A DNA stretch of 45,727 nt from a virus. Positions within the stretch are counted from its first letter, which is position 1. Each line of letters opens with the position of its first letter. Positions 3-40,563 of this stretch are shown here, in pieces. The translations under genes and the position numbers were made by a program. The notes under the pieces were generated by a model. It had not been told where the DNA came from and did no database searches. It saw only the letters and a program-made list of their open reading frames with translations. The stretch covers positions 1 through 45,727 of IMG/VR virus record IMGVR_UViG_3300024256_000018; one strand, given 5' to 3'.

Positions 3-368
3 ATCTCAGGGAAATTCAAGATCGCGTCCACAGGCACGTCACTCCTGCTCATGTGCAACACAGGCACGTACGCGTATAAAGGCGCGTATGATATGCTCGG
101 GTGGGACACGGACAATGACGCGACAAACACCAATCCGGTTGAGGCTGATTTTGGTGTCTTGGGTATCCCTCAAGATTTGGTTAATGCTTGCAATCTCCTT
201 ACCCTCCGTTTGTATAATGACTCCGGTTTGGGTGGGGACAGATTTGATCTTGCAAAGAAGGATACTACCACGGGTTCATCCTCTGGTTCTACTACTGAAT
301 TTGTTGGTGGGGAAATGCCACCGGAGGTTGCTTCTATTCTATTAAAATACCTTAAGGAATTATCGTGA
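3..368 (+). CDS. Head-tail connector-like protein, 5' end missing
   Basis: This reading frame is open from the first bases of the window, so the N-terminus lies outside; the first internal ATG is at 51. About 121 residues are visible. The central part, with a proline followed by an alternating helical stretch (IPQDLVNACNLLTLRLYND), looks like the helix of gp6-type head-tail connectors that form a ring under the portal. The tail is Ser/Thr/Gly-rich and then amphipathic (PEVASILLKYLKEL). It overlaps the next gene by 4 bases and sits directly before neck and tail genes, which is the usual place of a connector. The family call is an inference from position and a short helical pattern. Confidence 0.5.
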   Translation: MSGKFKIASTGTSLLLMCNTGTYAYKGAYDMLGWDTDNDATNTNPVEADFGVLGIPQDLVNACNLLTLRLYNDSGLGGDRFDLAKKDTTTGSSSGSTTEFVGGEMPPEVASILLKYLKELS

Positions 369-913
369 GTGATTCTGTAAGAATTACGTCTAACTTCAAG
401 GAGAAATCCAAGCAGATAGACAAATATGCCAAGAGGCTGAAGAAGACCATTTTGCGGGATGCAGTGGCTGCATCTATGCAGGAAATAGCAAATGTGTCTG
501 CACAGGATTTTTTCAATCCCACATTCTCTCTTGAGGAGGCACGGACGGCCCCACCTTTAAGTGATATGATTACCTCACGATCGAACAGGCTCATATCGTC
601 CATACTGGGGTCCTTCAATTTCAATTCTACTGGATTACCTCCCAAGACGAAATCACTTCTCTCCACCCCTCCGAAAGCGGGAAAAGGGAAGAGCGAATCG
701 ATTCGTGAGATCAAGGTTACTCCTTTTGGATTTAGTGGCATAATGGGTTCGAAAGTTCCTTATGCAGCCATACATGAATTTGGTGGTGATACTGGTCGGG
801 CTACAATCCCGGCCAGACCCTATCTTCACCCGGCAATTGAAAAATCTCAGGAGCACGTATTTGATATTTTTAGGTCTGCTCTTATTAATAGTTTTGAACT
901 GGAGAATATCTAA
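365..913 (+). CDS. Neck/tail completion protein, HK97 gp10 / Mu gpG-like
   Basis: The protein has 182 residues. Its C-terminal half carries a YAAIHEFGG segment followed by IPARPYLHPAI. This arrangement (an 'A..HEFGG' turn and then 'IPARPFL') is characteristic of the HK97 gp10-like and phage virion morphogenesis (gpG) families, which act in joining or completing head and tail. The N-terminal half is helical and basic. The gene starts inside the stop region of the connector-like gene and its stop abuts the ATG of the next gene, so the three are translationally coupled. The family call rests on the motif and on its place between connector and tail tube genes. Confidence 0.65.
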   Translation: MSDSVRITSNFKEKSKQIDKYAKRLKKTILRDAVAASMQEIANVSAQDFFNPTFSLEEARTAPPLSDMITSRSNRLISSILGSFNFNSTGLPPKTKSLLSTPPKAGKGKSESIREIKVTPFGFSGIMGSKVPYAAIHEFGGDTGRATIPARPYLHPAIEKSQEHVFDIFRSALINSFELENI

Positions 914-1435
914 ATGACTGTCACTAGCAAAAGAGAAGACATCCTGGAATATCTCCTGGATACAGTCTCTCATTTACCAGACGGAACGGGGTTCTATAAT
1001 TTGGATATCAAATCCAGAGCTCGGATGTATAAAGATATTTCTACGATGAAAGATCATGAGTTTCCGGCATTGTTTATTTTGGATGATACTTCTACCCAAT
1101 ACAACCCTATGACAAATTGCGGATACACAACCGGGACGACCATCCAGGGCGTGACGGATGGGATGCCCGTGAATGTGGTTGGGGTAGTAAAAATCAACCG
1201 TAGAAATGACCCAGACAGCCTGGGAAGATTAAGCACGGAATTGAATAAGATTTTCTCTGATATTATTATAGCAATGTCTAGAGATTTAAGACAGGGTGGA
1301 AACTGTGAGGCCTCCGTTTTAGTAGGGGACAATCGAACAGTTGAGGTTGATGAATCACACGGATATGGTTTGGTGATTTGTACCTATATGATCAAATATG
1401 ATTTTAATCCACGGGCAACAACGCCGATAACATAA
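914..1435 (+). CDS. Putative tail terminator protein
   Basis: The protein has 173 residues and starts on the base after the preceding stop codon. No decisive motif is visible. It is a mixed alpha/beta protein with an N-terminal helix (REDILEYLLDTVSHL), a central stretch rich in Gly/Thr, and a C-terminal strand pair typical in outline of the gpU/tail-terminator fold. Gene order (connector, gp10-like, this gene, tail tube) matches siphophages in which the third gene is the tail terminator that caps the tube. The function is inferred from synteny only. Confidence 0.45.
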   Translation: MTVTSKREDILEYLLDTVSHLPDGTGFYNLDIKSRARMYKDISTMKDHEFPALFILDDTSTQYNPMTNCGYTTGTTIQGVTDGMPVNVVGVVKINRRNDPDSLGRLSTELNKIFSDIIIAMSRDLRQGGNCEASVLVGDNRTVEVDESHGYGLVICTYMIKYDFNPRATTPIT

Positions 1436-1447
1436 AGGAGTTAGAAA

Positions 1448-2536
1448 ATGAGTACAGCTTTAGGTGTAAAAGGGATTATGGGAGCGGCGCAACAGTCTGC
1501 ATATGAGACTCCAGTTAATGCCACCGATCTTGTTCCTTTCTTAAATGAAAGTATTAACATCGAACCAGCATTTGGCGATCATGATTATCTTCATGGTTCA
1601 GCCGGTATTCCTGGAACGGAAAAACTATTTGAGCCAGTTATTGGTTCAGTCGAATGTCGCATCCCATACACCCAGAAAGACGCTGGTGGTGATTTTACCA
1701 GTACTGATCTTTTGATCGCTCTGTCCATGGGAGTTTCGACCTGGGATGCAGGGACAACCGCAAACCAATTAACATTCACAAATGATTTAGAAGTGAATGG
1801 AACTCTTGCAGTTGATAAGGGTTATTCTACATCATCTTGGGAGACCGTTGGGGCCATGATTAATTCCATGACCATTAGTGGTAATTCAGCTGAATTTATC
1901 TCTGCCAATTTTGATGTAATTGGGAAGGACCAAACGAGGTCTGCTTCTGAGAATACTGCAGCTAAATTGCAAGCCCTTGTTTACAATCTTCCAAGCATCC
2001 TACATTTCTCTGATCTCACATTTCGTATTGGTGATCAGGCCAATGCTTTAGGGGCTGCAGATGAGGTTTGTATTACAGCCTTCAGTCTGGTTGTGAATAA
2101 CAACCTAACTGAGCCAACTCAGTCAACCCCATGTCCAGCTCAATTGGATTCTGGAGTGGATACATACGACCATGACGATACAATGGAAACAATCAAACCA
2201 AGAAGGAACGGATTCAGGGAATGTACGCTCGAGATTACCATCCCAAGATACACCAGTGATACCTTCCTTGATTGGAGAGATGCTGAAACGAAATTGATGG
2301 CCGATTTCCATTTCACAGATGGGACTCATAACTATTATATCTATCTCCCGAACATCCAGATTCCAACGGGTGTTGCACCAGTCACTGGACCTGAAGCTTT
2401 GACTCAAACAATATCCTTAAAATGCTTCACGTACAATGGTCATGGTTTTATGACTTTCTCAGATGCAGCAACAACCAGTCTGGGTGAGGTTTGGATAGAA
2501 TTGATCAGTGAACGTACAGCTGCGATTTTAAGCTAA
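1448..2536 (+). CDS. Major tail (tube) protein, copy A
   Basis: The protein has 362 residues and a good ribosome binding site (AAGGAG, about 8 bases before the ATG). It begins MSTALGVKGIMGAAQ, has DLVPFLNESI at about residues 27-36, and ends with a beta-rich domain containing CITAFSLVVNNNL, TIPRYTSDTFLDW and a PVTGPEALTQTISLKCF strand. This is the pattern of tail tube proteins, and the gene lies upstream of the chaperone and tape measure genes, where the tube gene is expected. The next gene encodes a paralogue with the same landmarks in the same order. Which of the two forms the bulk of the tube cannot be told from sequence. Confidence 0.7.
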   Translation: MSTALGVKGIMGAAQQSAYETPVNATDLVPFLNESINIEPAFGDHDYLHGSAGIPGTEKLFEPVIGSVECRIPYTQKDAGGDFTSTDLLIALSMGVSTWDAGTTANQLTFTNDLEVNGTLAVDKGYSTSSWETVGAMINSMTISGNSAEFISANFDVIGKDQTRSASENTAAKLQALVYNLPSILHFSDLTFRIGDQANALGAADEVCITAFSLVVNNNLTEPTQSTPCPAQLDSGVDTYDHDDTMETIKPRRNGFRECTLEITIPRYTSDTFLDWRDAETKLMADFHFTDGTHNYYIYLPNIQIPTGVAPVTGPEALTQTISLKCFTYNGHGFMTFSDAATTSLGEVWIELISERTAAILS

Positions 2537-2568: not shown

Positions 2569-4029
2569 ATGAGTACAGGATTAGGTGTTAATGCTAAACT
2601 CGCTTTTAGGGTTGAAGGGAGTGAACTCTCTGGCCGGGGTTTGGTCAATACTGCATACCCAACTGCACCGGATACAACGGTGCCAAATGCCGACGCAGAA
2701 GAGGTCCTTTTAGGTGTGAGTGATTTGGTTCCGTTTCTTTCTGAATCGATTGATGATGCAAGGACCCAAGAGAATGATGAAACCCTCCTCGGTCAAGCTG
2801 GCCTCCCAGGTATGGATGAGGTCAGTATTTTACCGGCTGGGAGTGTCGAGATTCCTATGTTTTACGATGGTCTGGATTCCATCATAGCTTGTGCCCTTGG
2901 ATTCGAACAACCACTGGCTACAAATAGCCCAGCCTTTGATGTCAAAACGGCCCTCACTTGTGGTTCGGCTGCGGCTGGCACATGGGTTGATGGGGCCGCA
3001 GTTTATACGGCCGCAGATATTGGAAAATATATCAGGACAACAAGCAGAACATCTCAAGGTCAAGTGAGGCGTGTTACGGGTGGGTCAGGAAACACCTACA
3101 ACATCACACCAAATTGGGATGTGACCCCCGATGCTACAACAACTGGAGAACTGGGAGCGCTTGAGTATACTCACACATTTGAATGCTCAAATCAATTGAT
3201 GACCGAGCTCTGGTCTGACTTCTATTCCAGTTATCCGACTGGTGGGGTTTTCACCTCCAATGATCAGATTGTTAGAAGGGGTACATTAGGGATTGAGAAG
3301 AGCCAGGCGAATCCATGGATTTTCAGGTCAGCTATGATCAACAGTTTTGGTATCTCAGCCACTCAAAAAGCGGGGCTGAAAGCCTCGGTCGCATTCCTCC
3401 CGTTCGACCTGGATAAGGACTCAGCTACGAACACTGGAAGCTCGACATGGGATTGGGACCAAGATTCACCCCTATTCGAAACGAATGAGAAGATTATGTT
3501 CTCAGACATTGATTACATTCGTGTGGCTGCATACAGTACTGGGACACCCCTAGATTCAGACGATAACAGGTGTATAAGCGCGTTTGACCTCACGATCAAT
3601 AATAACCTCCAAGGGGATGATCAAAGTGCTTGTACGGGCAAATACCGCGTCGAGCCAGCCCGCGGGGGTATGCGTGAAATCTCTGGGACTTTAACAGTGC
3701 CAAGATATACTGCAGACACCTGGTCAACTTGGGCCGATGCTGAGACAGTATTGATGGCCGAGATTGTCCTGAGTGGGTCAACCCTTTCATCAAATCCCAG
3801 GACCTTGAAAGTCTGGTTGAATAGCTTCAAGATTAAGAAGTTCACTGCACCGATTGCAGGTCCATCTGTTGTGACTCAAACAATAGAATTTACTTGTTTG
3901 ATTCCCACTGGACAAGCTTCTGGTTTCCCAACTCATACATCTGGATTATCTCCCAAATCTGAGATCTTTATCCAGACCACAAATCAGAATCCTTTTAATG
4001 CTTTCTTAGATCAGAATCAGGAGTATTAA
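2569..4029 (+). CDS. Tail tube protein paralogue, copy B
   Basis: The protein has 486 residues and a TAGGAG ribosome binding site. It shares with copy A the start MST-LGVNAK, the DLVPFLSESID motif, the 'G-AG-PG' turn (QAGLPGMDEV), and the C-terminal series CISAFDLTINNNL, TVPRYTADTWSTWADAET and a PIAGPSVVTQTIEFTC strand. It is about 120 residues longer. The extra length comes mainly from an N-terminal insertion after residue 10 and a central Thr/Gly-rich segment (about residues 125-190). The two genes are therefore a diverged tandem duplication. The second protein may be a minor tube component or a tube protein with a surface domain. Confidence 0.65.
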   Translation: MSTGLGVNAKLAFRVEGSELSGRGLVNTAYPTAPDTTVPNADAEEVLLGVSDLVPFLSESIDDARTQENDETLLGQAGLPGMDEVSILPAGSVEIPMFYDGLDSIIACALGFEQPLATNSPAFDVKTALTCGSAAAGTWVDGAAVYTAADIGKYIRTTSRTSQGQVRRVTGGSGNTYNITPNWDVTPDATTTGELGALEYTHTFECSNQLMTELWSDFYSSYPTGGVFTSNDQIVRRGTLGIEKSQANPWIFRSAMINSFGISATQKAGLKASVAFLPFDLDKDSATNTGSSTWDWDQDSPLFETNEKIMFSDIDYIRVAAYSTGTPLDSDDNRCISAFDLTINNNLQGDDQSACTGKYRVEPARGGMREISGTLTVPRYTADTWSTWADAETVLMAEIVLSGSTLSSNPRTLKVWLNSFKIKKFTAPIAGPSVVTQTIEFTCLIPTGQASGFPTHTSGLSPKSEIFIQTTNQNPFNAFLDQNQEY

Positions 4030-4030
4030 T

Positions 4031-4339
4031 ATGAAATCGATTGCAACGAAAGATGGGTTGTTTGTTTCCTTAAGGTTCGAGGGTTTATCCTGGAACGGGG
4101 GACGAAGAACCCACAGTGAAAAAGAGTTAAAGATTATCAAGAGAATCCCGCAATCAATGGCGGTGATCAAAGATAAGGCTGGGGTCATTCTCAACCCAGA
4201 GAAGAAAGCCCCAACCAAGCCCAAATTGAGTGCTAAGAAAGCACCGAAGAAACCCACCAAACCGAAGGAGAAGAAAGATGAAAAAATTAGCGATAACCAC
4301 GGGACTGGTCAAGAAGAAATTTCAGATACCGGAGACTGA
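4031..4339 (+). CDS. Small Lys/Pro-rich protein of unknown function
   Basis: The protein has 102 residues. It starts one base after the stop of the tail tube paralogue and has an AGGAG site. Residues 1-55 look like a small folded domain (IATKDGLFVSLRFEGLSWNG). Residues 56-90 are a disordered run of Lys, Pro and Ala with repeated APKKP-like units, followed by an acidic end. It overlaps the chaperone gene by 62 bases in another frame, which is long but seen in phages. I do not recognise the family. Its position suggests a tail-associated or assembly role. Confidence 0.6.
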   Translation: MKSIATKDGLFVSLRFEGLSWNGGRRTHSEKELKIIKRIPQSMAVIKDKAGVILNPEKKAPTKPKLSAKKAPKKPTKPKEKKDEKISDNHGTGQEEISDTGD

Positions 4340-4661
4340 TGTAATTCTCACTTATATTGAGTTACCCTACCTTGAGAGAAAGACGTTATTATACTCCCAT
4401 CTTGTTGAAGGGAAACTCAGTGTAGAAAAATCAGTTGACCTGGCTTTTGCCTTTATGGAAAAGATGATTGTTGGTTGGGAAAACGTCACTGATGAGGGTG
4501 GTGATGATATTGAGTTTGATAAGTCCCTAATTCGGAAAGTCAATGAAGATATCTATCTACCTTTCTTAGATGAGATTGTTGCCCAGGCCACACAAGAATT
4601 TTTTGATTCCGATGCTGGGGTCGAGAACCCAGAACCAGAGGATGAATCAAAAAACTCATAG
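4278..4661 (+). CDS. Tail assembly chaperone, short (gpG-like) form
   Basis: The protein has 127 residues. The start at 4278 (MKKLAITTGLVKKKF) is chosen because GGAGAAGAAAG lies directly upstream; an in-frame ATG at 4230 has no such site and would add a very basic stretch. It is small and acidic, with a helical middle (LPYLERKTLLYSHL) and an acidic, disordered end (residues about 110-127). It is placed between the tail tube and tape measure genes, as expected for the G chaperone that coats the tape measure protein. Two codons before its stop the sequence A AAA AAC occurs in the zero frame, allowing a -1 shift into the long overlapping frame that follows. Confidence 0.75.
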   Translation: MKKLAITTGLVKKKFQIPETDVILTYIELPYLERKTLLYSHLVEGKLSVEKSVDLAFAFMEKMIVGWENVTDEGGDDIEFDKSLIRKVNEDIYLPFLDEIVAQATQEFFDSDAGVENPEPEDESKNS

Positions 4662-5110
4662 CCTATGTAAAGGCCTCGATTCTCTGGGAGCTCGATCTTG
4701 ATTTTTGTCTTGCTTGTAGAGATTTACATAGGAAGCGATCGAGACCCGGAAAACCAGACCTACCGCTTTGTGAAAAGACCAGAGCAAAAGGGAATCCTCC
4801 CGAATGTGAATTCGTTCGGGAGTGGGAAGATTCGGAAGGAGAAAAGCGAACAGACCCATTACTTCTTTTGCCACAAAATTACAGAGTACTTGAACTCTAT
4901 GAAAGGATAACCAAACTCGGTAATTTACAAAAGTATAGATTCAAAAGGGGAGAGGAAATCTACACCACATATTTTCCGGACCTCAGTATGATGGAATTCG
5001 TCCTAAATCATTTCTTACCAGAAGGGACCACGTTGGATGAATACCATAAGTTAGTTGATCAGATTGGGACAGTACACAATCTGAAACTTAATAATATATT
5101 GGCGGGATAA
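4278..5110 (+). CDS. Tail assembly chaperone, long (gpGT-like) frameshift product
   Basis: Reading the short chaperone to the heptamer at 4649-4655 and slipping back one base gives 126 residues from the first frame plus 151 from the -1 frame, 277 in all. The -1 frame is open without interruption from the slip site to the TAA at 5108-5110, four bases before the tape measure ATG. It encodes a domain with several cysteines (DLDFCLACRDLH) and a helical end. No good start codon with a ribosome binding site precedes this frame; the first candidate inside it is a TTG at 4868. The same G/GT arrangement is known from lambda and most siphophages. The shift itself is inferred from sequence. Confidence 0.75.
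4649..4655 (+). promoter_or_regulatory. -1 programmed ribosomal frameshift site (A AAA AAC)
   Basis: The heptamer A AAA AAC is in the zero frame of the short chaperone (codons TCA AAA AAC TCA TAG), a canonical X XXY YYZ slippery site. A weak hairpin (GCCT at 4661-4664 pairing with AGGC at 4671-4674) begins six bases downstream and could act as a stimulator. The stop codon of the zero frame lies one codon after the heptamer. Confidence 0.75.
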
Positions 5111-5113
5111 ACC

Positions 5114-7717
5114 ATGGCCTTAAGAGTATCGATATTTCTAAAAGACGTTGCAAGTTCTAAACTCGGTAAGATTGCTGGGAAGGTTACAAATCTCGGTAAG
5201 AATTTTGTCAAGTTTGGTGCCCTTGCAGCCACAGCAATTGCCGGGATAAGTACCAAACTGGCCGGTGATTTTGATAAGGGTCTCAGGGAAGTTTCCACCC
5301 TGATGACCAAGGTCACCGAGAAAGATATTAAGACCATGGGAAAAGAACTGGAAGCCCTCTCAGGTAAAACTGGTCTTGCAATTAACTCCTTGGTGAAAGC
5401 CCGGTATGATATCGTGTCAGCCGGGTTTGCCGATGCAGCTCAGTCTGCTATAGTTTTGGGTGAAGCTTCTAAGCTTGCTGTTGGTGGTGTTACCACTGCG
5501 GCGGCTGCAGCTGATCTATTAACCACAGCTCTCAATGCTTATGATAAAACTGCGGAGGATGCAACCGATATTTCAGACATCCTTTTCACTACAGTTCGAT
5601 TAGGTAAAACTACCATGACAGAGCTCGCGGCATCCATGGGCAATATGTTACCCATAGCTAAGGCCGCAAACGTGCGTTTAGAGGATGCTGCGGCCTCCCT
5701 TGCACTGGTAACTGCAAATGGTATTGATACAGCCACAGCCAGTACATCACTTAAGAATGCATTTAAGAATTTAGCAGCCCCAACGGATGATGCCAAGGCT
5801 GCAATGGATGCAGCCGGGATAACTGTTAAGAAGTTTGAAGATGGGACAGTTGATCTTGTTTCCACTATGAAACAATTTAAAGGGCTACCCCTTGATGCTT
5901 TAAAGGAGTTCATCCCTGATATTCGGGCCATAAATGCTATCCAGATATTATCAGATAAGGTCGACGGATTAGCTGACAATATTGGGGCCATGGATGAGAG
6001 GGCAAATGCAGCTAAAATTGCTTTTGATAAAATGCAATTATCATTCAACACAAAACTCGATAGGCTAAAGAATAACTTTGCCAGAATCTTCCGTGAGATC
6101 GGACGACAGATTATGAGTGTGTTGTCACCCGTGGTTGATGAGGCCAATAAAATCCTGGAGGACCTGGGAGATATTGGGTGGGACCAAGTTGTTGCTACAA
6201 TAGGAAAATCTTGGGCTCAACTTAAACCGATCTTTGATCAGATACTAAAAGAGATTCTGAAACCCATCCCGGCCTTGTTTAGTGCAGTTATGAAAATGGC
6301 TGCGAAGGGTGCATTCATATCCTTTAAGCTTGCATGGGCTGCAATGGGGTCCGTGAAAGATCTATTATTCCCAGGGGATGAGGCCGAGAACTTAGCTTTA
6401 TTATTTGGTGCAGTTGGTGGTGAGGCTGCAAAGAAATTCCTTGAGACTGGGAAGTTTGAAGAACTGGGTCCAGAGATTGCAAAAGTATTCGCTGAGGGTA
6501 CCAGAGAAGAAATGTTAGCCCAGGCTGAGAAACTGGGAATCAAAGAGGCCGTTGATATTGCTTTAGGAAGTATTGGTTTTGTGGGTAAAGAAGAGGGTGC
6601 TCAGATTATGGAGAACCTAAAATCTGGTTTGGATACCACAGATATGGTCACAGCTTTTGGGGAAGACTTTAAAGGGAAGATTGCAGGACTCGATCTTTCA
6701 TCTATCAGTTTAGATCTTAACAATATCTTTGGTGACCCCGGTGCAGGTTTGGATGCAATTATAGCTAAGATAAATGAGGCTGTTAAGATAATCCAAGATG
6801 CCCAAGTTGCCATCACGGATAATGATGCTATTGAAAATGAAAAGCAACAAGCCATATTAGCTGCAGCCCATGAACAAAAACTTGCTTCTTGGGCAGCGTT
6901 CTTTGAAAGTCTTTATGGTGCAAAATCTGAATCAGAGATACAACTTTATGATGTTGAAAAGGAGAACTTTGTAAAACGTTTAGATGCTTTTAATCAATAT
7001 GCTGCAGTAAAGCAAGACGCATTTAAGGTCCTGTATAAAACTGAAATGGATTTGGGTAAAACAGTAGCCCAGGGCCTCGGGAATATTTCAACCGGTTTAA
7101 TGAATCTTGAGAAGGCAAACATCCAAAAGAAACTGGATGCTGATATTAATGCTGTCTTGGACAGTACGAAATCTGAAGAAGATAAAAATGCAGCCATAAA
7201 AATTCTCAAAGAAAAAGCATTGCAAGATGAGAAATCATATGCCAAGGAACTGAAACCCATCAGGATGGCCCAAGCCATTGCAAATGGGGCCTTAGCAATC
7301 ATCAATGCTCTTACAGCGAAACCCTTTATTCCCGTTGGTGTTGCGGCTGGTGCAATGGCTGCAGTTGCCACGGGGTTACAAATTGCTACGATAGCTGCAC
7401 AACCTTATGCACAGGGTGGTAAAGTTATGAGTTTTGCAAATGGTGGTGCTGTTCCTTCATCCGATACGGTTCCAGCCTTATTGACCCCTGGGGAGTTTGT
7501 TTCAACAAGGGCTGCGGCCCAACAGTTTGGCCCAGAATTGAATCGATTGAATCAGGAGGCCGATGGAGGTTCACCAGCTGGAGGAGGAGGAGACACATTC
7601 AATATTACTATCCCCGCTATAGATGGTGAATCCGTTTACAATATGATCATAAATAATAAAGAAGAAACAGCTGATGGACTCCGGGAACTTGCTAAGACCG
7701 GTCACATAGATAACTAG
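5114..7717 (+). CDS. Tail tape measure protein
   Basis: The protein has 867 residues. The N-terminal part (about 45-240) has the pattern of the TIGR01760/PhageMin_Tail family: a heptad-rich start, then GLAINSLVKARYDIVSAG, a TTAAAAADLLTTALNAY helix and a MGNMLPIAKAANVRLEDA region. Hydrophobic helices lie around residues 730-770. The C-terminus has the usual tape measure ending (SSDTVPALLTPGEFVSTRAA). It scaffolds tail tube polymerisation and sets tail length; by the rule of thumb of about 0.15 nm per residue the tail would be near 130 nm. It follows the chaperone pair directly. The ribosome binding site is weak (GGCGGGAT), so coupling to the frameshift product is likely. Confidence 0.9.
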   Translation: MALRVSIFLKDVASSKLGKIAGKVTNLGKNFVKFGALAATAIAGISTKLAGDFDKGLREVSTLMTKVTEKDIKTMGKELEALSGKTGLAINSLVKARYDIVSAGFADAAQSAIVLGEASKLAVGGVTTAAAAADLLTTALNAYDKTAEDATDISDILFTTVRLGKTTMTELAASMGNMLPIAKAANVRLEDAAASLALVTANGIDTATASTSLKNAFKNLAAPTDDAKAAMDAAGITVKKFEDGTVDLVSTMKQFKGLPLDALKEFIPDIRAINAIQILSDKVDGLADNIGAMDERANAAKIAFDKMQLSFNTKLDRLKNNFARIFREIGRQIMSVLSPVVDEANKILEDLGDIGWDQVVATIGKSWAQLKPIFDQILKEILKPIPALFSAVMKMAAKGAFISFKLAWAAMGSVKDLLFPGDEAENLALLFGAVGGEAAKKFLETGKFEELGPEIAKVFAEGTREEMLAQAEKLGIKEAVDIALGSIGFVGKEEGAQIMENLKSGLDTTDMVTAFGEDFKGKIAGLDLSSISLDLNNIFGDPGAGLDAIIAKINEAVKIIQDAQVAITDNDAIENEKQQAILAAAHEQKLASWAAFFESLYGAKSESEIQLYDVEKENFVKRLDAFNQYAAVKQDAFKVLYKTEMDLGKTVAQGLGNISTGLMNLEKANIQKKLDADINAVLDSTKSEEDKNAAIKILKEKALQDEKSYAKELKPIRMAQAIANGALAIINALTAKPFIPVGVAAGAMAAVATGLQIATIAAQPYAQGGKVMSFANGGAVPSSDTVPALLTPGEFVSTRAAAQQFGPELNRLNQEADGGSPAGGGGDTFNITIPAIDGESVYNMIINNKEETADGLRELAKTGHIDN

Positions 7718-22530: not shown

Positions 22531-23663
22531 AAATCTTAGGACTTACATCTGGTATCGGGTCCATGATGATTGGGGCTCGAGGCAAGCATAAAATCCTCGG
22601 GAATATTGAGTGGAGGAAATACTATCACACTGGTACTTTCGAAAACAATTTCCCAGGTTCATTTATGGTTCATAAGATGGAAGATGTGCCAGAGAAAATC
22701 AGACCGCAATTGGAAGGGGTTGATCTAATTATTGGTCACCCAGAATGTGGGAACTTCTCAAACCTGCACACAACTAAACCCTGCAACAATGCCATGGACA
22801 TTCCCTTGTTCATGGATGTGTGTAAAGAATTGAGGCCGAAGTTTTTCGTTCTGGATAATCTCCCAAAATCTTTGCTGGCTGTGCCAATGAAGAAATGGGT
22901 CCATGAGTTCCCAGATTACAATATCGAATTCCAATATATTTCTAATTTTCATTATGGAAATACTCAGAAGAATCGGAAACGATTATTCATCATTGCTTCC
23001 CTAAAAGAATTGAAATATTTATTCCGCCCCGGGGAAGTGGAACACGATATGAAATTTTGGGATGTGATTAAGGATTTACCCAACAAGGCAAACAGACCCG
23101 CGATCAATCACGACCACCTGAAACCAGAGGACCCCATGGTGAATTTCTCTCCTCATTATTTTGGATATGCCAGAGGGAAGACTATGACCTGGGCTCAGTT
23201 CACAAAACGGATAGAAAAGAATGTGGACAAAAGCAACAATATTATGTACACAAACTTAAAGGGAGAGAGGAGAATCAAGATCGGGTTTCGTGTGATCACA
23301 TTAGATAAATATGCCCCAACCTTAACAGGGCAATCGATGTGTTATAGGGCTGATACATTCCAGCCTTTCACGATACGTGAGCGTGCCCGTATACAAGGCG
23401 TGCCCGATGACTTCATTTTCTATCCCCTCAAACCGGATATTAGAGAGCGTGCTATCCTGGTCAAACAGACCGGGAAATGTATGCCCATTCAGTTCTGTAC
23501 TTTTCTTGTGAATCAGATTGCAGGTCACCTCAAAGGTGTGAAGACAAGGGCATCCGGGAAACGCTTTCTTAAGTACCCGGAATTTATGTTAGAACAATTC
23601 GATGAACTGGCACAGGAAGTTCTATTTTTAGATGAGGAGGAATCATCATGTGTGGGCTCTTAA
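22527..23663 (+). CDS. Divergent cytosine-C5 DNA methyltransferase
   Basis: The protein has 378 residues and overlaps the preceding gene (ATGA). Motif I is LTSGIGSM (about 6-13), motif II has E28 (NIEW), and motif VIII is QKNRKRLFIIA (about 147-157). Motif IX, RERARIQGVPDDF, lies in the C-terminal part. The catalytic Cys is C74, but motif IV is HPECGNFS instead of the usual 'PPCQ-FS', and motif VI is LDNL instead of 'ENV'. These changes touch residues that contact the flipped cytosine, so the substrate or the group transferred may differ from a standard methyltransferase. It could protect DNA or start a hypermodification. Confidence 0.75.
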   Translation: MKILGLTSGIGSMMIGARGKHKILGNIEWRKYYHTGTFENNFPGSFMVHKMEDVPEKIRPQLEGVDLIIGHPECGNFSNLHTTKPCNNAMDIPLFMDVCKELRPKFFVLDNLPKSLLAVPMKKWVHEFPDYNIEFQYISNFHYGNTQKNRKRLFIIASLKELKYLFRPGEVEHDMKFWDVIKDLPNKANRPAINHDHLKPEDPMVNFSPHYFGYARGKTMTWAQFTKRIEKNVDKSNNIMYTNLKGERRIKIGFRVITLDKYAPTLTGQSMCYRADTFQPFTIRERARIQGVPDDFIFYPLKPDIRERAILVKQTGKCMPIQFCTFLVNQIAGHLKGVKTRASGKRFLKYPEFMLEQFDELAQEVLFLDEEESSCVGS

Positions 23664-24979
23664 TGATCAGAGGAAATTCGATACCCGTTAAGGATTTTCT
23701 TATGAATCATCGTGGGATAGAAAGGAGGGGTTTTCAGGACGAAAATGTGGAGATGATTCACAACCGATTACCCTTGCAAACGAGGCTGGGTGATGAGTGG
23801 GGTGGACCAATTGAAATACAAGGTGGACATTTCCTTTTTGTTGGTGAGATTTTTAATCATCCACAAGAGTGGGAGAATGATGTTGAGTACCTTCAATATT
23901 TCTTTAATGACCCAGACTGGATGGACAAATTAGCCCATACAGATTGGGATGGATTCTGGGCGATTGTTGTTTATCAACATGGGGTCACTTATACCTTTAC
24001 CGACCCCTTAGGAAAGAAGCAATTGTACTACGATCATCATGGGAATCTTTGCTCTGAAATCAAACCACTTTTGAATGGGCAAGTACTCATCTCACAATTC
24101 GATTATGAGAACACCCAGGCTGGTCGCTTAACCCCATTCGATCGCATCTATAGAATTAAGCCAGGACAGCTGATGGTCATGACCCCGGATAAGGATTTCA
24201 AATCAATTGGAAACCTCTGGAACTTATATCAATTTCCAGAATCCGGGGTGACCCAGCACAGGACATTACGAGGGTTGATTAAAATATCTGTTCGTAGGAG
24301 GATGATCAACCTGCGAGACCGGAACACAGTCTTCGTTTCGGGTGGGTTGGATTCCACTATCATCATCCAGTGTTTGGCTGAGATGGACCACCTTGACAAA
24401 TGTGATTTCTTAACCATAAAGAATGGTGAGGATGATCAGTATATTGAGGCCGTGGAATCGCACTATGGAATACGTGTTCGAAGGATTGATTACAACCCCT
24501 TCATCAAGCCAGAAGATATCATGGAAATCTATGAGCATCCGATTGAACTCGGCAGCCTTATGGCCCAGGTGAATTTGGTAAGAGAAACCCAGGGCTCAGT
24601 GATCTATACTGGGGATGGGGCTGATGAATTATTCTCTGGATATTCAAGGGCACAGGAATGGGATTCACAGGAGTACGATGTGTTCACAGAAATACCCTAC
24701 TATCATATGATTCGATTAGATAGAATTGGGATGTCAGTGACCAAGGAAATACGATCACCATTCCTGGGTCACGAAGTTGTATGCAGAGCCCTCAACATGG
24801 GGTATGACGTTAGGAGGGGCAAGGCTTGTTTGAAAGACTCCTTCGCTGATATACCTGAGGTCATAATCAATCGTGCTAAGCGACCCCTTAGAGACCCAAA
24901 TATGGACAGTGATAGGGCACAGCATATCAAACATTGGGAGCAAACATTCAGGAGGGTTTTTTCAAATGCCAAAAACTAA
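23648..24979 (+). CDS. Asparagine synthetase-like glutamine amidotransferase
   Basis: The protein has 443 residues; GAGGAGG precedes the ATG inside the upstream gene, which it overlaps by 16 bases. Cys2 is the N-terminal nucleophile of a class II glutaminase. The ATP pyrophosphatase (PP-loop) is VSGGLDST (about 230-237), followed by YTGDGADELFSGY (about 320-332) and RSPFLGHEVV. Asparagine synthetases are usually 500-620 residues. The oxyanion-hole 'NGE' is VGE at 65-67, so glutamine hydrolysis may be altered. Such enzymes adenylate a carboxylate and convert it to an amide. In this operon the acceptor could be a base modification rather than free aspartate, which is inference. Confidence 0.8.
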   Translation: MCGLLMIRGNSIPVKDFLMNHRGIERRGFQDENVEMIHNRLPLQTRLGDEWGGPIEIQGGHFLFVGEIFNHPQEWENDVEYLQYFFNDPDWMDKLAHTDWDGFWAIVVYQHGVTYTFTDPLGKKQLYYDHHGNLCSEIKPLLNGQVLISQFDYENTQAGRLTPFDRIYRIKPGQLMVMTPDKDFKSIGNLWNLYQFPESGVTQHRTLRGLIKISVRRRMINLRDRNTVFVSGGLDSTIIIQCLAEMDHLDKCDFLTIKNGEDDQYIEAVESHYGIRVRRIDYNPFIKPEDIMEIYEHPIELGSLMAQVNLVRETQGSVIYTGDGADELFSGYSRAQEWDSQEYDVFTEIPYYHMIRLDRIGMSVTKEIRSPFLGHEVVCRALNMGYDVRRGKACLKDSFADIPEVIINRAKRPLRDPNMDSDRAQHIKHWEQTFRRVFSNAKN

Positions 24980-38186: not shown

Positions 38187-38399
38187 ATGATTTTGTTATT
38201 TAAGTTGTGGTCGATCGGATATTTGGTCTTTGGGTTTGTGTCCTTTGCATTTACCCTTACAACGATAAAGGAAAAAGGATTTGATAAGGCTGGATTCCCT
38301 GCTAGGTTGTTTTACTGGCATGGGATTTTCTTTGTGTGCCTTTTTATAATTGTTTCACTAACCTTTATTGGGGTAGAGTTTTATGAATATGTTAGGTGA
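38187..38399 (+). CDS. Small membrane protein, 70 aa
   Basis: The protein has 70 residues with an AAAAAGGAG site. Two hydrophobic segments (LLFKLWSIGYLVFGFVSFAF and FFVCLFIIVSLTFIGV) predict two membrane spans. It overlaps the portal gene by 17 bases. It has the shape of a small holin, but its place in the head module gives no support for that. Confidence 0.55.
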   Translation: MILLFKLWSIGYLVFGFVSFAFTLTTIKEKGFDKAGFPARLFYWHGIFFVCLFIIVSLTFIGVEFYEYVR

Positions 38400-40563
38400 T
38401 TTCTTTCAGAACATTAGAATTGCTAATGGGATGAAAACATTTATAACAGACCCAGATGAATTGCATAAGATAGCAACTGTTGAATCTTATGGTGGGTTAG
38501 GGATAGCACCGGAACCACACAGTGCTGACTATGAAGAAACTTACAAGACCGTATCATATGTTTATAGGGCCGCAGGTATTGTGGCCCGTTCCATTGCTCA
38601 GCTCCCAGTTGTGATCGAAAGAAAAGTCGGTGATGAATATCTGGATGTGACTGACCAACCTGATTTTAGTATCTTCAAAACTTATAATGAATTTCAAACC
38701 TCTTATGATTTCTGGGAGGCTGCTTTGTTGTACCTCCTTCTTACAGGGGAATCACCCTGGCTGAAACAGATGACAGCCGGGGGAATGATTGAAGCTATGT
38801 ATCCCATAAGCCCTTCATTCTTAGATATTGTTCCAGTGAATGATTTCCAGATTGATCACTTCATCTTTGTAGGTGGCTCAGGAAAACGAATTCACATCCC
38901 TGCAGATGACATTTCTTTCTTTAAGTTTTTCAACCCAAACAATCCGGTCCGGGGTTTGAGTCCACTCTCAGCCGCTAGAGAAGATATCATCCTGGACCTG
39001 GATGCAGTTCAAACTAACAAAACCACATATCGCCAAGGGATGAAACCCTCTGGTGTTTTTAGTACTGATCAAGCCTTGGGAGATAAACCTTGGAAGAGAA
39101 TTAAGGACCACCTCACTCAACAATATACTGGGGTCCATAATGCAGGTAAGCCCATCATGTTAGATCACGGGATGGACTTCAAAAAGATTGCTTTATCAAA
39201 TCAAGATATGCAGTACCTTGAACAGCGCCAATGGTCCAAAGATACAGTGGCCGAAGTTTATGGTGTCCCACCCATCTTCATGATGGACTTTAAAGAAGCA
39301 TCTGTCCTTGCCAATGCAGGAGTTCAAGAGAAATTATTCTGGTCAACTACGATCACATCACTGACCATGAAATTGAATATGATGTTCACTGAGTTTCTCC
39401 TTCCAGAGATTACCAAACAGAAGGATGTCCGATTTAGATTTGACCTGGATGATGTTCCAGCCTTACAACCTGATAAGACAGAGCTATCCGAGAGATATGA
39501 ACGAGGGCTCAAGAATGGGGCGTCAACCCCGAATGAATACCGAACAGTGGTATTGGGCTTAGAGGAACATTCAGACCCGTTAGCAGACCAGCTATGGGTT
39601 CCGATGAATATGATTCCCATGGGTACAGAGATTGATGACCCGGGGAAGGGTGATGATTCTAAATCAGCCTTAGCGGATTACGCCCAGGCAATTGCAAAAG
39701 CATCAGGTGTACCCCTTGCTGAAGCAACGGGTTTACTACTGGACAAGACTACCAGAAATGTAGAAATACAAATGATGAAAGCTTCGGCTATATCTTCTAT
39801 TTATAGATTGGTGACGAAGCTCGGCCCCAAGTTTGCAAAGGACTTACATAAAGCATTTAAGAAACAAGAGAAAGAAGTCTTGTCCAATATCAATTCCAAT
39901 AAATCACTCACCATGGAAGCTTACCTCAGGGAGCTCGGTATTCATTATGAAGAGATTGAACCGGGGTCCAAAAAATATACAGTGACCGGGGTCCAGTTTA
40001 ATATGGATGAATGGAATGCCATCATGCAAAAGATTGGTGAGCCCTATATTGCGGATGCCCTCTATATTGCAGGTGGGGAATTGTCTGAAGAGCTTGGTGA
40101 AAAGTTTGCTGAGAATCCAGCCTCAACAGCCTGGGTGGAAGGTCGATCAATCCAGTATGCCGAACTAATAAATACAACAACAGCCGATGCAATCAATGCA
40201 CTGGTTGCAGAGGGATTAGCTGAGGGTCTCTCAGTAGAAGAAATGGCTGCAAGATTGACTACATATTTTAATAATAATTCTTTGATGAGAGCTACCAGGA
40301 TTGCAAGGACAGAAATGGTCATGGCCGGGAATAAGGGTCGACTGGATTCTATGAAACAATCAAAGGTAGTTAAGAGTCACATGTGGGCCACACAGAGGGA
40401 TGGTGATGTTCGCGATTCCCATCAGGATATGGATGGCACTGTTGTTAAGGTTGGGGCCTCATTCCCAGGTAATGACGGAGCTGATTCTTCATTCCCATCC
40501 TCGGTCAATGAGAGATGCTTTACAATCCCGATTAAGGAAAAAAAGAAACCGAAAAAAGGATAA
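38383..40563 (+). CDS. Portal protein fused to MuF / SPP1 gp7-like head morphogenesis domain
   Basis: The protein has 726 residues. Residues 1-400 are an HK97-like portal: VYRAAGIVARSIAQLPVVI near the start, then RGLSPLSAAREDI, and EVYGVPPIFMMDF, the motif that usually ends the crown region. Residues about 600-720 contain AELINTTTADAINALV, ATRIARTEMVMAGN and WATQRDGDVRDSHQDMDGT, which is the Phage_Mu_F / SPP1 gp7 domain. Portal and MuF are separate genes in most phages. The fusion sits directly before the prohead protease. Confidence 0.85.
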   Translation: MNMLGDFFQNIRIANGMKTFITDPDELHKIATVESYGGLGIAPEPHSADYEETYKTVSYVYRAAGIVARSIAQLPVVIERKVGDEYLDVTDQPDFSIFKTYNEFQTSYDFWEAALLYLLLTGESPWLKQMTAGGMIEAMYPISPSFLDIVPVNDFQIDHFIFVGGSGKRIHIPADDISFFKFFNPNNPVRGLSPLSAAREDIILDLDAVQTNKTTYRQGMKPSGVFSTDQALGDKPWKRIKDHLTQQYTGVHNAGKPIMLDHGMDFKKIALSNQDMQYLEQRQWSKDTVAEVYGVPPIFMMDFKEASVLANAGVQEKLFWSTTITSLTMKLNMMFTEFLLPEITKQKDVRFRFDLDDVPALQPDKTELSERYERGLKNGASTPNEYRTVVLGLEEHSDPLADQLWVPMNMIPMGTEIDDPGKGDDSKSALADYAQAIAKASGVPLAEATGLLLDKTTRNVEIQMMKASAISSIYRLVTKLGPKFAKDLHKAFKKQEKEVLSNINSNKSLTMEAYLRELGIHYEEIEPGSKKYTVTGVQFNMDEWNAIMQKIGEPYIADALYIAGGELSEELGEKFAENPASTAWVEGRSIQYAELINTTTADAINALVAEGLAEGLSVEEMAARLTTYFNNNSLMRATRIARTEMVMAGNKGRLDSMKQSKVVKSHMWATQRDGDVRDSHQDMDGTVVKVGASFPGNDGADSSFPSSVNERCFTIPIKEKKKPKKG

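Follow-up and report, generated by a model that had tools for sequence, protein, structure and literature searches.

Do the two overlapping reading frames ahead of the tape measure gene in a metagenomic phage represent two genes, one broken gene, or one gene whose product is completed by a change of frame? The question was addressed in the window, which is the whole stretch of DNA analysed (IMG/VR record IMGVR_UViG_3300024256_000018, 45,727 nucleotides). G and T follow the Phage_tube_2 (tail tube) genes, in that order, and precede the tape measure gene; the features discussed below are collected in the table. Judged from the sequence, it is highly probable that a tail-assembly-chaperone gene at this locus is subject to programmed −1 ribosomal frameshifting of the lambda type. 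The observation itself is confirmed and is ordinary in kind, the phage very probably using the same trick as lambda and many other tailed phages.

Table. Features of the G/T locus and of the neighbouring tail genes, in window coordinates.
Feature	Position	Strand	Evidence or remark
Tail completion gene	365-913		PHROG/Pfam scans
Tail terminator, weak match	914-1435		PHROG/Pfam scans
Tail tube protein	1448-2536		Phage_tube_2 match
Tail tube protein	2569-4029	+	Pfam PF18906 Phage_tube_2, E 2.2e-13
G ORF, predicted tail assembly chaperone, short product of 127 aa	4278-4661	+	Shine-Dalgarno AAGGAG; family profile match; GWENVxDE
Shine-Dalgarno-like AGAGGA, weak candidate upstream stimulator, may reflect Glu/Asp codons	4637-4642	+	6 nt 5′ of heptamer; best anti-Shine-Dalgarno duplex −7.7 kcal/mol
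Slippery heptamer A_AAA_AAC, zero frame of G	4649-4655	+	Sole in-frame copy; kept in relatives
T ORF, −1 frame, 151 codons plus TAA, expected solely within a 277-aa G-T fusion	4655-5110	+	
5′ arm of predicted 10-bp stem, CCUAUGUAAA	4662-4671	+	Fold; starts 6 nt after heptamer
3′ arm of predicted 10-bp stem, UUUACAUAGG	4723-4732	+	Fold; pairs perfectly with 4662-4671
Tape measure protein	5114-7717	+	PHROG 991, E 1.1e-48; Pfam PF10145, E 7.9e-30

The reading of the sequence is unambiguous as to the layout. G starts at the ATG at 4278, shortly downstream of its Shine-Dalgarno sequence, and ends at the TAG at 4659-4661 with the codons TCA AAA AAC TCA TAG, so that a single TCA separates the heptamer from the stop. 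A first-pass annotation had placed A AAA AAC in the zero frame one codon before the stop, and these coordinates are exact. It had also described the −1 frame as open for 151 codons up to the tape measure ATG; indeed, this frame has no stop from 4646 until the TAA at 5108-5110, its codons after the slip would be CTC ATA GCC TAT and so on, and T ends 3 nt upstream of the ATG of the tape measure gene. Over the T region the −1 frame is the only one of six free of stops and ranks first in codon usage (+0.06 per codon versus −0.09 to −0.50), a score slightly under that of typical genes in the window (0.09-0.28). The heptamer A_AAA_AAC occurs in frame once in the 9,648 codons of 23 window genes. Looser heptamers of the form X_XXY_YYZ are frequent in the same codons (34), and it is therefore the position and the conservation of the heptamer that carry weight.

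The G half is, by its sequence, a divergent member of a known family of tail assembly chaperones (PHROG 8233/313). A family profile built without the window matched the predicted fusion with an E-value of 3.6e-8 and a probability of 95% (hhalign), and the alignment passes through the slip junction (EEDAKNLIAVL in the family, EDESKNLIAYV in the window). PHROG assigns all 11 members of this profile to tail assembly chaperones. The motif GWENVxDE is common to G of the window and its relatives, while overall identity to the relatives is approximately 15-32%. When the G protein alone was scanned directly against Pfam, PHROG and NCBIfam, no significant match was obtained; searching PDB sequences with the profile of G gave no relevant match, and a scan of genome contigs for G identified no relatives. 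A nucleotide search of phage records found no match. When the predicted fusion was compared with cultured phages by tblastn, three weak matches were obtained (E 3-6). Annotated tail assembly chaperones account for two of these, and all three carry A_AAA_AAC in frame right at the end of the first ORF. The AlphaFold models of G and T were of low confidence (pLDDT 57 and 56), and PDB fold searches returned no usable match.

For the T half, no homologue was detected outside a near-identical contig. Compared with the family T profile, from which the window was excluded, T of the window gave an E-value of 0.56, and no alignment to the family T domain (PF23812) was obtained. Pfam, PHROG and NCBIfam scans of T were without significant match; a scan of viral contigs matched only the near-identical contig, and a scan of genome contigs identified no relatives. 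The window may carry a T domain that has diverged, or one of another kind.

Conservation of the slippery site was assessed in two sets of relatives. The first (n=31), gathered starting from the tblastn matches, comprised 27 IMG/VR contigs, which were fetched by peptide patterns outside the heptamer, a relative nearer to the window (L009) and three isolates (L005-L007), and the second comprised 15 more cultured phages. In 46 of 46 relatives (28 metagenomic loci and 18 cultured phages), the G ORF carries, close to its end and in the zero frame, either A_AAA_AAC or G_GGA_AAC, which is its shift-preserving equivalent. This is not a count of independent events, as many of the IMG/VR loci are close relatives of one another: at 80% protein identity, the window, the relatives from IMG/VR and the first three isolates fall into 18 clusters. 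The distance from the heptamer to the G stop is 0-21 nt in the first set; in the second, it is longest in phages M6 and MW2, at 39 nt. The cultured relatives have the same two-frame layout as the window, and in AH03 and RcRudolph the frames are annotated as joined frameshift products. The same motif beside the stop codon has already been reported for the Acinetobacter phages Loki (gp12/gp13) and IME_AB3 (PMC5313236). Gene order, homology of G and this conservation together support the classic G/GT arrangement proposed in the first-pass annotation.

The explanation that survives best next to frameshifting, while itself highly unlikely, is that T is a separate gene with a non-standard or internal start and that the heptamer is incidental. 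It had been noted earlier that the second frame lacks a good start of its own, and this holds: the −1 frame offers no ATG, GTG or TTG ahead of the TTG at 4868, 71 codons in, and its earliest ATG is at 4988. These two codons, and an ATT at 4679 with a purine-rich AAAGG upstream, are the candidates that such a gene would have. Starts at ATT are, however, very rare, initiation at the TTG would lose 71 codons of open frame, the slippery site is kept throughout the relatives, and homology spans the junction.

Even less probable is a fusion made by slippage of the transcribing polymerase, rather than of the ribosome, on the heptamer. The site does contain a run of six A, but six is short for slippage by bacterial polymerases, and some relatives have G_GGA_AAC, which is devoid of a long homopolymer. 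Comparably improbable is a pseudogene, or an assembly or sequencing error breaking one gene, as could be suspected of a metagenomic assembly in which a single expected product is spread over two frames, since 871 bases are identical in a second IMG/VR contig (L002, possibly the same virus), which makes an assembly error unlikely, the break falls exactly at the conserved heptamer and cultured relatives share the two-frame layout.

Programmed ribosomal frameshifting thus remains the preferred reading, and it would proceed as follows. The majority of ribosomes would read G and terminate at the TAG at 4659. A minority, in which AAA occupies the P site and AAC the A site, would slip back by one base on A_AAA_AAC, perhaps aided by the 10-bp stem downstream, and continue in the −1 frame to 5110, yielding the G-T fusion. 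By analogy with lambda, the tape measure protein would be coated by many copies of G and few of GT, which would recruit tail tube subunits. We infer production of the fusion, the efficiency of the slip, the part played by the stem and what T does from the sequence and from this analogy. In E. coli, A_AAA_AAC is far less shifty than A_AAA_AAG (PMC5009743), and the efficiency of slippage in the window may therefore be low or host-dependent.

The stem is an addition to what the first-pass annotation had observed, and it encloses a smaller hairpin. A perfect stem of at least 10 bp whose 5′ arm falls inside the same tight distance interval occurred in 2 of 3,000 synonymous recodings and at 3 of 8,414 real genic positions, corresponding to a chance of about 4-7e-4 for a test that was picked after the stem had been seen, with a distance range that is the one expected from known sites. 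The total fold energy after the site is unremarkable in the window, 65 of 200 synonymous recodings being equally good.

Across the family, a signal of structure is concentrated immediately after the heptamer. In a set of 38 sequences that includes the window, the 126 nt following the site fold more stably than synonymous recodings, with a mean z of −3.0, and 27 of the 38 were significant at p ≤0.025. Three stretches that begin a further 126, 168 and 198 nt downstream yielded just 1 to 4 significant cases of 36-38, and G-coding stretches upstream of the site were intermediate (7-13 of 38 significant, mean z −1.1 to −1.7). In the relatives, the structure in excess of what the protein sequence demands lies about 5-120 nt after the heptamer. 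Some of them have a basal stem, in which the first part of T is paired with bases approximately 100 nt downstream. Counted over 21 relatives, this basal stem comprises 214 pairs where 173.5 ± 5.4 are expected from synonymous recoding, and none of 2,000 recodings reached as high. Pair counting and recoding place it in only part of the family; other relatives have a local hairpin in its place, and RNAalifold on the 21 relatives produced no meaningful consensus structure. No description of downstream structure in this chaperone family was found in the open-access literature.

These RNA structures may stimulate shifting. The wider proposal, that many phages of the family carry a selected RNA structure just after the site, be it the basal stem, a local hairpin or the 10-bp stem of the window, which boosts slippage at the weak A_AAA_AAC, and that in the window a conserved G is fused to a T domain of unrelated or strongly diverged sequence, is tentative and in our judgement falls somewhat short of an even chance.

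The family to which G is assigned (PHROG 8233/313/3817 and Pfam PF23812, Phage_TAC_18) includes Pseudomonas phage 73-like and YuA-like phages, Lokivirus (Loki, Halfdan and AB_SZL7) and Erwinia phage AH03. Family and window alike have a G domain with GWENVxDE, A_AAA_AAC (or G_GGA_AAC) at the G stop or just ahead of it, a T that is read in the −1 frame and a G/T pair located after the tail tube gene and ahead of the tape measure gene; structured RNA follows the site in most members. The window deviates in its 151-aa T, which is without match to the family T profile. Furthermore, in most annotated relatives T and the tape measure gene are separated by an extra gene of the tail completion type, whereas the window has none there and its own is located at 365-913.

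Compared with gpG/gpGT of lambda, the slippery site differs, being G_GGA_AAG in lambda. Layout and proposed mechanism are alike in that a −1 shift occurs near the end of G and the fusion acts with the tape measure protein, lambda G and GT working in a set ratio with it (PMC5009743). The g-t site of the haloarchaeal virus HCTV-2 is the very same heptamer, A_AAA_AAC (PMC5009743); its host is archaeal, and the likeness to the window lies in the heptamer and the G/T frameshift. The finding allows two proteins from a metagenomic phage that is otherwise unplaced to be named and joined correctly in annotation. The family could also serve to examine how bacterial ribosomes shift on A_AAA_AAC, which is weak in E. 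coli, and whether a downstream stem provides the missing stimulation.

Several other features of the window were observed. The two genes with Phage_tube_2 matches (1448-2536 and 2569-4029) are tandem tail tube paralogues in one phage. Between the second of these and G, a Lys/Pro-rich ORF of 102 aa (4031-4339) lies in a different frame and shares 62 nt with the beginning of G. Elsewhere, a 726-aa ORF at 38383-40563 is a portal fused to a minor capsid protein, with a C-terminal SPP1 gp7-like minor capsid domain, and a 443-aa ORF at 23648-24979 resembles, as judged by eye, an asparagine-synthase/glutamine-amidotransferase protein.
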